32,147 bases of DNA. Source: Deltaproteobacteria bacterium (GTDB taxonomy: Bacteria; Desulfobacterota; Syntrophia; Syntrophales; Smithellaceae). The position numbers and the translations under genes were made by a program. The stretch lies in contig JAKLDS010000027.1 in NCBI GenBank assembly GCA_022703375.1, positions 1-32,147 on the forward strand, in the 5' to 3' direction. This document shows positions 17,091 through 29,592 of the stretch, in pieces; position 1 is the first letter of the stretch; each line of letters starts with the position of its first letter. The notes beneath the pieces were generated by a model. It did not search any database, was not told the origin of the DNA, and worked only from the letters and a program-made list of their open reading frames with translations.

Positions 17091-17717
17091 ATGCAAAGAG
17101 CGCTTCTTATCGTAAAGTATCTGGTTTTTTCATTGCTGGCCGTGTGTTTTTTATATGCATGTCACAGTAATACATCGCGCGATTTCAGCAATGATTACAC
17201 TATTGATGTAAATCTTCAGAATTATAACCCTAAAATAGACCCCGCTAAATATCAACATTTAAGAGGGAAAAAATTCTGCATGTCCAATATCAGAAATAGC
17301 GCCAGAAATACGTCAAATTTTTCTTTTTACAGCAAAGATTCAAAAATCAGATATCAGCTTTCCAGTTTGCCCAACTATGGCTCTCCGCAACTGCTCCAGA
17401 GCTATTTCTGGTACGCCTACCAGAAAGCCTTTCTGCAGGCGGGGCTTAATGCCGGAGCTGATTGCCGGGAAGAAGATATTCCTGAATTATGGATAATCCT
17501 GCAATCCTTTAATGATGAGGAACTGCAATTCAAAATTACCTTATTAAAGAACAGGGAAACAGCTTATGAAAAAGATCTGGTTGTTACGCCGGCTCCTGCT
17601 TCATCCCGTAATCATACGGCATTACAAAAACATGCTTACGATATTACCGATCTGACGGTTGTCAAAATTCTTGATGATCCGGGCTTTCAGGATGTGATGC
17701 TCAAATATGGAAAATAA
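17091..17717 (+). CDS. Predicted lipoprotein of unknown function
   Basis: This 208-aa protein has a lipoprotein signal: basic start, hydrophobic core (VFSLLAVCFLYA) and lipobox LYAC with acylation at C24. The residue after Cys is His, so outer-membrane sorting is possible. The mature part is soluble and contains no family I recognise. It has a mix of polar beta-like stretches (KFCMSNIRNSARNTS) and a helix AYQKAFLQAGLNAG. A YajG-like or DUF4136-like lipoprotein fold is possible but unproven. An excellent SD (GAGGAGGA) precedes the ATG, and TTGACA at 17037-17042 may be a -35 box without a clear -10. Confidence 0.75.
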   Translation: MQRALLIVKYLVFSLLAVCFLYACHSNTSRDFSNDYTIDVNLQNYNPKIDPAKYQHLRGKKFCMSNIRNSARNTSNFSFYSKDSKIRYQLSSLPNYGSPQLLQSYFWYAYQKAFLQAGLNAGADCREEDIPELWIILQSFNDEELQFKITLLKNRETAYEKDLVVTPAPASSRNHTALQKHAYDITDLTVVKILDDPGFQDVMLKYGK

Positions 17718-17794: not shown

Positions 17795-17826
17795 GACTGT
17801 CCGGTTATCAGTCCTTCTTCTTTTTT
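17795..17826 (+). terminator. Possible intrinsic terminator after the lipoprotein gene
   Basis: GACTG (17795-17799) pairs with CAGTC (17809-17813) and is followed by the pyrimidine tract CTTCTTCTTTTTTTC. The stem is short (5 bp) and overlaps the stop codon of the convergent radical SAM gene, so the call is tentative. Confidence 0.35.
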
Positions 17827-19022
17827 TCTTTAATAAAGCACCGCGGGTCCTCTGCCAGGTAATCTCCGCTGTAGGCATGGGCGCGGCCGCGGCAGCCGCC
17901 GCAGATTACTTTATAATTACAGTCGCTGCACACTCCTTTTAATAATTCCTCACGGCGGCGCAAATCCCGAAATACAGGAGCATCCGTGTAAATTTCCTTG
18001 AAGTTCCTGTCGCGGATATTGCCGGCGTTGACTTCCAGGAAAGGACATGGCCAGACATCGCCATTGGCTTTGATGTAGACAAAACCGCGGCCGGCGGCGC
18101 AGCCATGAAACACTCGGCCGGCAAAATCAAGCACACGTCCTTCGCGGATGCCGTTTTTCTCCATCAGGTAGGGCCAGTATTGGGGGCCGGCTACCGGTTC
18201 AATTATTGTTTTTGCTTTTTTTTGCTTCCGGGAAATCAAATTGCTTAAATTATTATTGGCGCTTTTTTTCAATGTAGCTTTTTCAATTTTCTCGCCGCGT
18301 CCGACAGCAACCAGCTGATACATCAGCATGATTGCGGCTCCCTGTTCATCAGCAAAATCTATCAAATCCGGCAAATATGGCATATTATATTCCATCGCGG
18401 TGGTGTTTATTTGTAAAAGGATACCGGCTTTTTTGGTGGCTGCTATAGCGCGCAGAGCAAGGTCAAAAGCGCCCGGTTTATTGCGCACGAAATCATGAAT
18501 TTGTGCGTTGGCGGCATCAATACTGATGGCGTTGCAGACAACTCCGTGGTCCTTAAGCTTGAAAGCCATTTCTTCGTCAATCAAGGTTCCGTTGGTGGCG
18601 ATTATATTAGCGAAGCCTGCCTGCTGCGAATGCCTCAGGAGTTCGAAAATATCGGGACGAACCAGCGGTTCTCCTCCGGTATATACAAGAGAGCGGAATT
18701 CACTGCATTCAGCCAGCATATCAATAAGCCTTTTACCTTCATCAGTAGTCAGCTCATCCGGCGCCGCTTTACCGCTCGTCGCATGGCAGTGAATGCACCT
18801 TAAATTGCAAGCGGAGGTAACTTCCCAGGCCGGATGCCCGGGATAGCCGATACAACCCATTCCCAAGGCGCCGTTCGAAACAGGAACTGAAGCAAAACTA
18901 TGAGCAAGGAGCCATTGCGGAAATTTATGCCAGCGGTTCAGATAACCCATCAGGACAGCGCTGCCTAATTGTCTGAGAATCAGCGAAGGTGGATTAAAAA
19001 ACGATTTTACTTTTTTTGACAT
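17808..19022 (-). CDS. Radical SAM/SPASM-domain enzyme
   Basis: This 404-aa enzyme has the radical SAM cluster motif C72-x3-C76-x2-C79 in TSACNLRCIHCHATSG. The SAM-binding VYTGGEPLVRPD and VVCNAISIDAANAQIHD follow. The C-terminal auxiliary-cluster (SPASM) region has GCAAGRGFVYIKANGDVWPCPF, then CSDCNYKVICGGCRGRAHAY and a last RCF. The general look resembles the AhbC/AhbD/NirJ tetrapyrrole-modifying group and related peptide-modifying enzymes, but I cannot assign a substrate. The UbiA-type gene 8 nt upstream is probably cotranscribed. An N-terminal extension of ~60 residues (NPPSLILRQLGSAVLMGYLN) precedes the barrel. Confidence 0.88.
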   Translation of the reverse strand: MSKKVKSFFNPPSLILRQLGSAVLMGYLNRWHKFPQWLLAHSFASVPVSNGALGMGCIGYPGHPAWEVTSACNLRCIHCHATSGKAAPDELTTDEGKRLIDMLAECSEFRSLVYTGGEPLVRPDIFELLRHSQQAGFANIIATNGTLIDEEMAFKLKDHGVVCNAISIDAANAQIHDFVRNKPGAFDLALRAIAATKKAGILLQINTTAMEYNMPYLPDLIDFADEQGAAIMLMYQLVAVGRGEKIEKATLKKSANNNLSNLISRKQKKAKTIIEPVAGPQYWPYLMEKNGIREGRVLDFAGRVFHGCAAGRGFVYIKANGDVWPCPFLEVNAGNIRDRNFKEIYTDAPVFRDLRRREELLKGVCSDCNYKVICGGCRGRAHAYSGDYLAEDPRCFIKEKKKKD

Positions 19023-19030
19023 AAAGTAGT

Positions 19031-19951
19031 CTATACGTACGCGGCTATGAATACCGCCGTAGTCCCCAAATTAACGATAATATTAAGTGCGCACATTGTT
19101 TCCAGCGTTTTACGGTCTTCATATTTGTCCTGCATCATTTTCATGATAATAAACAAGGAAACAAAAAAAATCGGAATATAAAAACAAACTGCCGGGAAGG
19201 GTAAGCCGAAAAAAGGTGATAGCATCATTAATAATGATGCCGACAAGGATATGGAGCAATAGATTATCTTTCCCGCCTTTTTGCCGCAGCGGTTGAGCAG
19301 ATTTCTTTTGCCGGTGGCCTTGTCTGCTTCATAGTCGGGAAACTCGTTGAGAAAAATAACATTAAAAATAGTCAGGCCGACAGGTATTCCCATAAAATGT
19401 ATTACGGGATGAACTGAGGCAGTCTGAATATAGAAAGCCGATGCTATGGGCAGCCACCCGTAGCAAAAACCGATGAATATTTCGCCGAAACCTCTTTCGA
19501 CAAGGCGAACGGGTTTAGTGGAATAAAAAAATCCCGGGAAAGCTCCGAGGCAGCCCAAGAGTAAAGTATAAGGACCTGTTTCAAGGCCGAATTGCAGAAT
19601 AAGACCGATAACACCGGCGACCAGAAAAGAAATGATGCTTGTCCATAGAGCAACCGAACGGGGAAGTTTTCCTTCCTGAATAACACCTGATCCACCAGCA
19701 AAGTTACTGCGATAGGAATGGTGGGATATTTCATCTTCCCGGATATCGAAGTATTCTCCTGAGTGGTATGTGGATAGCATAATCAGAATTACGGCAAGGA
19801 CACCCAGAGCAAAAGTAACAATACTTATTGAGGAATTGAAGTGATAAGCCAGGAAAGTTCCAAGGATAAAGGGCAACACGCCTACTGTATGGAAGGGTGG
19901 ACGGGAAAGTCCAAACCACCCGCGTAGTATTTCTGTAATTGATTGCTGCAT
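19031..19951 (-). CDS. UbiA-superfamily prenyltransferase
   Basis: This ~306-aa polytopic membrane protein has about eight hydrophobic segments. Both aspartate-rich prenyl-diphosphate motifs are present: SGEYFDIREDE near residues 64-74, a variant of NxxxDxxxD, and NEFPDYEADKATGKRNL in the second half. A GFFYSTKPVRLVERGFGE loop resembles MenA-like members. It likely transfers a polyprenyl chain to an aromatic acceptor, as in quinone synthesis; the product is unknown. I chose ATG 19951 because the protein family begins there and a predicted promoter lies just upstream. ATG 19987 or TTG 19999 would add 12-16 residues. Confidence 0.85.
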   Translation of the reverse strand: MQQSITEILRGWFGLSRPPFHTVGVLPFILGTFLAYHFNSSISIVTFALGVLAVILIMLSTYHSGEYFDIREDEISHHSYRSNFAGGSGVIQEGKLPRSVALWTSIISFLVAGVIGLILQFGLETGPYTLLLGCLGAFPGFFYSTKPVRLVERGFGEIFIGFCYGWLPIASAFYIQTASVHPVIHFMGIPVGLTIFNVIFLNEFPDYEADKATGKRNLLNRCGKKAGKIIYCSISLSASLLMMLSPFFGLPFPAVCFYIPIFFVSLFIIMKMMQDKYEDRKTLETMCALNIIVNLGTTAVFIAAYV

Positions 19952-20331
19952 AATCTGCCTGTCAATTTTGTGGCGGATTAGTAACATAATGACTGGCAAT
20001 TGTCAAAGAAGTATCCTTTCTTGTTTTGTGCATTCTATTGATGGTGTGCATGATTGGGAAGTTTTCAAAAAAAAGTAAGAATTAAGGTAAAAATTTAAAA
20101 TAAATCTTGATTGTCGTTTTTTATTGTGTTAGGCCAGACCAATATTTGCGGGAACCAGAGTGAGCCTTATTCAGAGCGCCGGCTGATTTTAAAAAAGCAG
20201 TTGCTCTTATGTCAAATAGATGCTAAAGAAACCGCCAATTGTGAGTTAATTTGTAAATTAGTTTTTGGCCGCAGCAGCGGTTGATTATAACAAAAAAACA
20301 TTATTTTTAGAGAAAGGGGGTTTTTTACAGA
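19952..20331. other. 380-bp intergenic region between the divergent prenyltransferase and HU genes
   Basis: It holds the minus-strand promoter at 19978-20006 and an A+T-rich stretch (20065-20130). A partial direct repeat around TGTGCAT occurs twice at 20027-20055. A small GCCGC/GCGG inverted repeat lies near 20268-20280. A purine run AAAGGGGG sits 12 nt before the HU start, an unusually long SD spacing. I see no tRNA, no terminator with a U-tract and no credible ORF. Confidence 0.5.
19978..20006 (-). promoter_or_regulatory. Possible promoter for the prenyltransferase/radical SAM pair
   Basis: On the minus strand TTGACA (20006-20001), a 17-nt spacer and TACTAA (19983-19978). The -35 is consensus and the -10 weak. 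The predicted start (~19971) would place ATG 19951 behind a ~20-nt leader and exclude the earlier start codons. Confidence 0.4.
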
Positions 20332-28812: not shown

Positions 28813-28890
28813 ATTACTGATATGGCAAGAAATACAGCCGTTTTAAAACGGGAAGAAAATATTATCCATTTAACTTATGAGGACATCATC

Positions 28891-29592
28891 ATGTTGAAAA
28901 AAGAAATAAAATACCGCAATCCGCTGACCAACCTCGGTTATGAACATGAAGACATCTTGCCCAACGGCGGATTTGGCGCAATTTTGGCGCATGCGGGCGT
29001 GGGTAAAACTGCTCTGCTCGTCCAGATTGCTTTAAACACAATGATTCGCGAGGAATCGGCGCTGCATTTAAGCCTGCAAGATGCGGTGAGCAAGGTTGAT
29101 GTTTGGTATCAGGAATTGTTTCAGAATATCGCGGGAAAATTCAGCGACGCGGAAGCTCAGGAATACTGGGATAAGATTCAACCCTATCGTTTTATCATGA
29201 CCTTCCGTGTAGAAAGTTTTTCGGCTGCCAATTTTGAAGAGAGACTCACCGATTTAATGCAACAGAATATTTTTAAACCCCATACCGTGCTTATTGACGG
29301 ACTGAAGTTCGATGAAGCAGGCCGCGGCCAGATGGTGCTTCTGAAAGAACTGGCGAAAAAATATTCCATGCGTGTCTGGTTTACCGTCCATGAACACCGT
29401 AATGAGGCTCCGGCTGAAAACGGCCTGCCGGTTTCTTTTCTGCATGTTGCCGATCTCTTTGATGTAATGGTTCAGCTGGAAGCCAAAGGCGATGAAGTTT
29501 ATATCAATTCCCTGAAAGGTAAATCATCCAGCGCCAAACCGCATACCCTGCGGCTTGATCCGGCGACAATGCTGATAAAGAGTGTTAAATAA
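28891..29592 (+). CDS. RecA-like P-loop ATPase of unknown role
   Basis: This protein is 233 aa from ATG 28891, 7 nt after TGAGGA. An upstream ATG at 28822 (256 aa) lacks an SD, though it lies only 9 nt after the EF-G stop. The N-terminal half has GGFGAILAHAGVGKTALLVQIALN, a P-loop with Ala for the first Gly, and VLIDGLKFDEAGRGQM as Walker B and sensor region. The C-terminal part (INSLKGKSSSAKPHTLRLDPATM) resembles the DNA-repair/KaiC-like RecA core. I recall similar uncharacterised cytoplasmic proteins in Desulfobacterota. It is probably cotranscribed with the EF-G gene; whether it acts with translation is unknown. Confidence 0.8.
   Translation: MLKKEIKYRNPLTNLGYEHEDILPNGGFGAILAHAGVGKTALLVQIALNTMIREESALHLSLQDAVSKVDVWYQELFQNIAGKFSDAEAQEYWDKIQPYRFIMTFRVESFSAANFEERLTDLMQQNIFKPHTVLIDGLKFDEAGRGQMVLLKELAKKYSMRVWFTVHEHRNEAPAENGLPVSFLHVADLFDVMVQLEAKGDEVYINSLKGKSSSAKPHTLRLDPATMLIKSVK

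Follow-up and report, generated by a model that had tools for sequence, protein, structure and literature searches.

A UbiA-family prenyltransferase gene and a radical S-adenosylmethionine (rSAM)/SPASM gene stand side by side in the window, i.e., the whole stretch of 32,147 nucleotides (nt) analysed here from contig JAKLDS010000027.1 of a Smithellaceae genome (Deltaproteobacteria bacterium, GCA_022703375.1; the host). The pair is kept in bacteria and archaea, and its two enzymes may act together to make a prenylated membrane lipid that resembles a quinone, a reading to which a probability of about 0.45 is given. It is supported by the conserved pairing, the correlated distances of the two proteins, the MenA-like sequence and UBIAD1-like fold of the UbiA protein, and the UbiE retained in bacterial carriers (genomes encoding the rSAM of the pair), together with the lack of MqnA/D in Desulfobacterota carriers, a UbiA copy without rSAM that has lost catalytic Asp residues, and the lack of a cross-phylum precursor peptide. 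Both genes are on the minus strand, with the UbiA-family gene first:

19031..19951, minus strand: UbiA-family prenyltransferase of a MenA-like subfamily, first gene of the pair (306 aa counted from ATG, a longer TTG start being possible; PF01040, 95.7 bits)
19023..19030, minus strand: intergenic gap of the pair (8 nt)
17808..19022, minus strand: radical SAM/SPASM protein, second gene of the pair (404 aa; PF04055 and PF13186 over cut-off)

The adjacency across 8 nt, as given in a preliminary description of this DNA, is thus borne out, and Pfam confirms both families.

Conservation and co-inheritance of the pair

The preliminary description asked for conserved co-occurrence, which was found at two scales. 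Among the 58 loci (L numbers; G and f numbers denote genomes and families) with an rSAM open reading frame (ORF), 54 have the UbiA gene upstream on the same strand, in Desulfobacterota, a Clostridia metagenome-assembled genome (MAG), Thermoplasmatota, and Thermoproteota, i.e., in two domains; of 66 loci, eight had no rSAM ORF and are not in this count (L040, L051, L059, L060, L069, L073, L076, and L164), L060 being a contig end. The four exceptions are L172 (G291), whose genome has no PF01040 match; L173 (G199), where the rSAM is cut by a contig end and the genome likewise has no PF01040 match; L175 (G264), where the contig ends at the rSAM; and L184 (G809), which at the locus itself has no adjoining UbiA. 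Because ORFs were called from their longest possible start, overlaps in this set may reflect the choice of start codon; the gaps of 172–378 nt in L047, L055, and L077 arise where the rSAM ORF is split or begins late. The overlap filter of the ORF caller removed the UbiA of L069, which a search recovered, and the rSAM of L164 (G204), a further pair with the rSAM at C44:32906-34078 and the UbiA match at C44:34189-34956 on the same strand.

At the finer scale, a search of 51 genomes of the host's family yielded the UbiA orthologue in 37 (E below 1e-100) and the rSAM in 31 (E up to 1e-75). UbiA adjoins the rSAM in all 31, and no genome of the 51 has the rSAM only. The pairing is therefore beyond chance, being adjacent in 31/31 rSAM genomes of the family and kept across two domains. 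The orthologues are neighbours in other genomes, and the two genes do not both belong clearly to a standard pathway; the opposite of either finding had been named beforehand as refuting the proposal.

More widely, a draw of 395 Desulfobacterota genomes contains 26 with a match to the rSAM at E 1e-75. Eighteen of these belong to the full type (E below 1e-100); the remaining eight align only from residue 62–65 onward and fall with AhbD in the tree. There are seven matches among 292 Thermoplasmatota, three of them of the pair type (G439, G693, and G704), and nine among 349 Thermoproteota, eight of the pair type as judged by the matched range. Seen from the other gene, 80 UbiA loci comprise 38 with the rSAM (partial ones at contig ends included), six with a close UbiA and no rSAM or only remnants, and 36 with a distant UbiA and no rSAM.

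The trees agree with a shared history. The rSAMs of the pair form one clade (99/95) and AhbD-type rows another (100/100); the host AhbC lies outside the pair clade on a long branch whose position is uncertain, and no grouping of the pair rSAMs with AhbD or AhbC was found in the tree, so that in the SPASM phylogeny called for earlier they stand apart from both. The UbiAs of the pair also group in a clade (98/94), apart from those of G805 and G844, which are placed in another part of the tree on a long branch. The rSAM of these two genomes still adjoins a UbiA-family gene, so that its partner seems to have been replaced. In a co-variation test of 49 pairs, the distance matrices of UbiA and rSAM correlate with r 0.89 over the distant subset of 21 pairs (0/5000 permutations), as expected for genes inherited together.

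The UbiA-family prenyltransferase

The score against PF01040 (95.7 bits vs a cut-off of 34.2) places the window protein in the UbiA superfamily. Its best NCBIfam matches are MenA models (97.5 vs a cut-off of 277 bits and 49.7 vs 102 bits), and it passes the equivalog cut-off of none of them; the partner UbiA of a Desulfurococcales locus (L092) does exceed the TIGR00751 menA cut-off (110 vs 102 bits). The AlphaFold2 model is confident (pLDDT 92.6), and its best structural match is UBIAD1 (8djk; Z 25.3 over 266 residues, 2.8 A), followed closely by the archaeal lipid synthase and further UbiA homologues. Two Asp-rich motifs mark the predicted active site:

19733..19756, minus strand: first Asp-rich motif, with E66 replacing the usual Asp, then D69 and D73 (motif comparison)
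19301..19348, minus strand: second Asp-rich motif, N202 E203 ... D206 ... D210 ... K215 x N217, invariant in alignment A2 (23 rows)

Glu at position 66 is found in 25/25 UbiA rows of the pair clade vs 0/15 other UbiA rows (14 distinct), in three of 36 unpaired relatives, and in all five readable copies of the close UbiAs without rSAM. Of the seemingly replaced partners, that of L183 has the usual Asp, and L182 is unreadable there. The UbiA copy at L076 (5989-6918), which lacks an rSAM, has D69, D73, and D206 replaced, i.e., three of the four catalytic Asp positions. In its fold, its two Asp-rich motifs, and its MenA-like sequence, the window protein thus resembles MenA (TIGR00751, PRK06080) and UBIAD1; it differs from MenA in scoring below all MenA cut-offs, in the Glu of motif 1, in having no men genes near the pair, and in coexisting, in G009, with a true MenA.

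The radical SAM/SPASM protein

Pfam scores over cut-off (Radical_SAM 85 vs 29.5 bits, SPASM 41.7 vs 21.5 bits), a CX3CX2C motif, and seven SPASM cysteines make the second protein a member of the rSAM/SPASM family. Its conserved parts were read from alignment A1, which holds 24 rSAM rows with 42–82% identity to the window protein:

18828..19022, minus strand: N-terminal extension, residues 1–65 (predicted helices 13–28 and 34–49)
18786..18809, minus strand: CX3CX2C radical SAM cluster motif (C72, C76, and C79), invariant in A1
17838..18101, minus strand: SPASM region with seven cysteines invariant in A1 (C308, C326, C365, C368, C374, C377, and C395)

The N-terminal extension holds nine invariant residues in A1 (P11, L14, Q18, L28, W31, W37, G56, C57, and G59), the last three within a GCxG motif directly before the rSAM core. 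This motif occurs in all rows of the pair and in one of 13 further outgroup rows (L162); the AhbC and AhbD rows lack it, unlike the pair rSAMs with their extension and invariant C57. The two helices are more hydrophobic than the rest of the protein (means 0.34 and 0.38 vs 0.00) and show no amphipathic signal, with hydrophobic moments of 0.23 and 0.08 vs a mean of 0.23 elsewhere in the protein. For these reasons, docking of the rSAM to the membrane through its modelled helices is a guess.

The AlphaFold2 model (pLDDT 87.3, below 50 at residues 56–59 and 400–404) matches SuiB, SkfB, and PqqE (Z 24–26), and, in a comparison by range made with a possible N-terminal peptide-recognition domain in mind, the alignments with SuiB and SkfB begin within the N-terminal extension of the rSAM with its two predicted helices. 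The best PDB sequence match is cytosylglucuronate decarboxylase. Among the best 25 of 76 NCBIfam matches, no model passes its cut-off, and the nearest are AhbD (TIGR04545, 302 bits) and NirJ2 (TIGR04055, 290 bits), both with cut-offs of 500. The protein therefore shares the radical SAM and SPASM domains with AhbD and NirJ2, its highest-scoring families among these matches, and differs from them in its sub-cut-off scores, its own clade, and its position outside any heme cluster.

Quinone pathway markers in carrier genomes

UbiE acts late in the known menaquinone routes, MqnA/D belongs to the futalosine pathway, and MenD was taken as the marker of the classical Men pathway. MqnA/D (PF02621) was found in none of 36 genomes, host included. 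Over the 395 Desulfobacterota, 223 have it (E up to 1e-15), i.e., 0/18 carriers vs 223/377 others (Fisher p 1.9e-7), a contrast that is confounded and inflated by kinship, with 5/18 carriers in the host's family. In each of the families f37, f44, f59, and f61, the carriers lack MqnA/D and one or more non-carriers have it, and within this comparison G374 shares its genus with the carrier G150. As controls, 14 known genomes gave a positive MqnA/D search in four (three at the stricter limit) and MenD over cut-off in seven.

The preliminary description called for a search for standard men or futalosine genes elsewhere in the host, and none turned up for MqnA/D or for MenD over cut-off (best 64 vs 244 bits). 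MenD exceeds the cut-off in two of the 36 genomes, both carriers (G009 and G442); weaker matches occur in 32 other genomes and are presumably related thiamine-dependent enzymes. Among 18 tested genomes of the family, MqnA/D was found in none and MenD over cut-off in one, and 16 have neither MqnA/D nor a MenD match over or near cut-off. As a separate observation, a classical Men cluster is present in a few Smithellaceae-type genomes, namely at L189 (G009), L190 (G442), and L213 (G010), the latter two partly by eye.

The host UbiE exceeds the TIGR01934 cut-off (227 vs 158 bits) and is on another contig than the pair. At E 1e-30, UbiE was found in 18 of 19 bacterial rSAM carriers (not in G291) and in 5/5 UbiA-only genomes, and in G156 the UbiA, rSAM, and UbiE genes follow in this order on one strand, with UbiE 165 nt behind the pair. 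The host has two UbiA-family matches, the UbiA of the pair and a partial 48-bit match in a 575-aa frame; because the latter is only partial, the UbiA of the pair is likely the partner of the host UbiE. The bacterial carriers have thus retained a gene of late quinone synthesis and mostly lack the early markers searched for; they share the late UbiE with the futalosine pathway (18/19 tested) and differ from it in lacking MqnA/D. The neighbourhoods of UbiE (20 regions) held nothing pointing to a head-group route.

Pairs of UbiA and UbiE without an rSAM also exist, at L207, L210, L216, and L217, in Syntrophales and one other Desulfobacterota genome. UbiE of L207, L216, and L217 is over the TIGR01934 cut-off, and that of L210 was assigned by eye and a PF01209 match. 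These are alike in that a UbiA-family gene adjoins a UbiE-type methyltransferase; they are unlike the present pair in having the usual Asp in motif 1 and falling on other branches of the UbiA tree. Of the four genomes with such pairs (G002, G024, G027, and G150), G002 and G150 have no MqnA/D and no MenD over cut-off.

Proposed function and alternative explanations

In the favoured explanation, the UbiA protein would transfer a polyprenyl chain onto an aromatic head group, as its family, fold, and active-site motifs suggest, and the rSAM would then abstract a hydrogen via the 5'-deoxyadenosyl radical and modify the head group of the prenylated product. Substrate, product, and order of steps are those we infer; prenylation is placed first because UbiA occurs without the rSAM in five or six of the 51 family genomes and the reverse in 0/51 (G291 being a case in the phylum). 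The rSAM chemistry is perhaps an oxidative decarboxylation or side-chain removal, by analogy with AhbD, AhbC, BlsE, and MftC, which carry out reactions of these kinds, AhbD being a decarboxylase; this is a guess drawn from such relatives, i.e., AhbD and the PDB match to cytosylglucuronate decarboxylase. In bacteria, the UbiE/MenG methyltransferase, usually encoded elsewhere, would probably methylate the product. It is doubtful, though worth stating, that the pair belongs to an undescribed, O2-independent route to a prenylated quinone or quinone-like electron carrier, one that anaerobic bacteria and archaea would share and that would replace or supplement the Men and futalosine pathways, with the rSAM completing the head group once the prenyl chain is in place. 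The parts are known kinds of enzymes, and a new quinone route is possible.

Several observations weigh against the quinone-like reading, besides the kinship within the MqnA/D contrast. Six of the 51 family genomes have UbiA only (G004, with rSAM remnants, G005, G024, G027, G030, and G035, truncated by the end of its contig), 14 have neither gene, and G291 has the rSAM without a UbiA-family or UbiE match. The lack of MqnA/D extends to 11/11 tested non-carriers of the same family and to non-carriers in other carrier families (G253 and G373 in f2, G057 in f13). UbiE is not specific to carriers, as 4/5 genomes with neither gene have it, and at E 1e-30 it was found in 0/11 archaeal carriers. In G009, adjoining genes score over cut-off as MenD, MenB, and MenA, and in G010 a MenA-like gene lies near a partial MenD; with MenD also in G442, some carriers can make menaquinone anyway. 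Most of the best structural matches of the rSAM are to peptide maturases, and scavenged 1,4-dihydroxy-2-naphthoate (DHNA) could supply the head group.

The last point leads to an alternative in which carriers import DHNA, UbiA acts as MenA, UbiE completes menaquinone, and the rSAM makes a minor modification. The MenA-like UbiA, the L092 partner over the menA cut-off, and the presence of UbiE in 18/19 tested bacterial carriers without MqnA/D and mostly without MenD all accord with it, as do the host's named relatives, which are known as syntrophs. Against this, G009 keeps the pair despite MenD, MenB, and a full-scoring MenA, the active site with Glu for Asp is distinct, and the archaeal carriers lack UbiE at E 1e-30; scavenging is judged unlikely. 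The missing archaeal UbiE also speaks for another alternative, a pair that modifies a non-redox prenylated lipid (an isoprenoid glycerolipid, glycolipid, or nucleoside lipid) unrelated to quinones, as do the archaeal digeranylgeranylglyceryl phosphate synthase among the best UbiA folds (6m31, Z 23.7; 7bpu, Z 23.6) and GDGT-MAS, an rSAM acting on archaeal lipids, among the structural matches in its core only. This is judged decidedly unlikely: the UbiA sequence is closer to MenA models than to NF009523 (97.5 vs 43.9 bits), which we take to be the archaeal-lipid-type model, and in bacteria the link is to UbiE.

A peptide-derived cofactor of the type of ribosomally synthesised and post-translationally modified peptides (RiPPs), with the rSAM maturing a small peptide that UbiA prenylates, would suit the closest rSAM structures, mostly peptide maturases and PqqE. 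It is very unlikely, given that no short ORF conserved across phyla was found within 700 nt in the 51 loci scanned and that an ORF of 60–70 aa is common to three Thermoplasmatota only. In these three loci (L079, L080, and L176), the pair is followed, by eye, by this conserved ORF and then by DtxR-type regulator- and FeoB-like genes. A short ORF shared upstream in Smithellaceae-type loci was also considered as a precursor and set aside, as by eye it looks like HU antisense.

The preliminary description had suggested a prenylated quinone, heme, or other lipid cofactor not yet described; the quinone type fits best, with its identity and novelty resting on reasoning from the sequences, and heme is not supported. 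A prenylated or altered heme, made by an AhbD/NirJ-like tetrapyrrole rSAM and a UbiA like heme O-synthase, would draw on the AhbD and NirJ2 scores among the best 25 of 76 matches, which stay far under the cut-off of 500. The ahb genes sought elsewhere in the genome are on contig C37, with the pair on C41; AhbC (696 bits, cut-off 650), AhbD (542, 500), and AhbA (168, 140) all exceed their cut-offs, and HemB lies between two rSAM genes of that cluster. HemB has no match in 7/30 carriers, including G805 and G844, where the contigs that carry the rSAM measure 1.61 and 1.78 Mb, although some of these absences are due to MAG incompleteness. A heme substrate is unlikely because the host has this separate cluster and those seven carriers lack HemB; with the rSAMs in a clade of their own and the best UbiA matches being MenA models, a heme product was rejected as the leading explanation and is the most improbable of those weighed here.

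In titles and the openings of abstracts, a literature search found no description of the UbiA–rSAM pair, which does not prove its absence, and the relevant passages of PMC5445326 and PMC9385802 do not describe it. For the syntrophic fatty-acid oxidisers Syntrophomonas, Syntrophus, and Pelotomaculum, electrons are reported to pass via menaquinone to formate or hydrogen (PMC7082340, PMC10308238), and a 2026 survey lists multiple bacterial genomes that lack both menaquinone pathways and calls the biosynthesis of sulfur-containing archaeal quinones uncharacterised (PMC13386864). Should the pair make a quinone-like lipid, part of the menaquinone-pathway gap would be filled by two named genes, which is directly testable.

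Genomic context and further observations

The host assembly (2.57 Mb, 120 contigs, 95% complete) has as its closest named relatives Smithella and other Syntrophaceae or Deltaproteobacteria MAGs, and a plasmid search gave no match at E 1e-60. On one flank of the pair are HU, trpS, scpA, and scpB, and on the other, an ORF without a Pfam match followed by an MscS-type channel. The pair had been described as lying outside any recognisable menaquinone or heme cluster, and indeed the Pfam scan, which covered 28 window proteins and not some short ORFs, revealed no such gene. The single promoter predicted for both genes fared less well. One site lies upstream of UbiA:

20186..20215, minus strand: sigma-70-like site, TTGACA-18-TAAAAT, 11/12 (weak evidence)

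The prediction is weak because promoter-like sites in the stretch number eight vs 5.2 +- 2.1 in shuffles, i.e., near chance.

No widely recurring third neighbour was found outside Smithellaceae-type loci. Minor recurrent neighbours, noted by eye, are two-component-type genes in five loci and a regulator with a FeoB-like gene in three Thermoplasmatota. Within the window, the ORFs 17091-17717 and 28822-29592 have no Pfam match, and the former has, by eye, a lipoprotein-like N-terminus.

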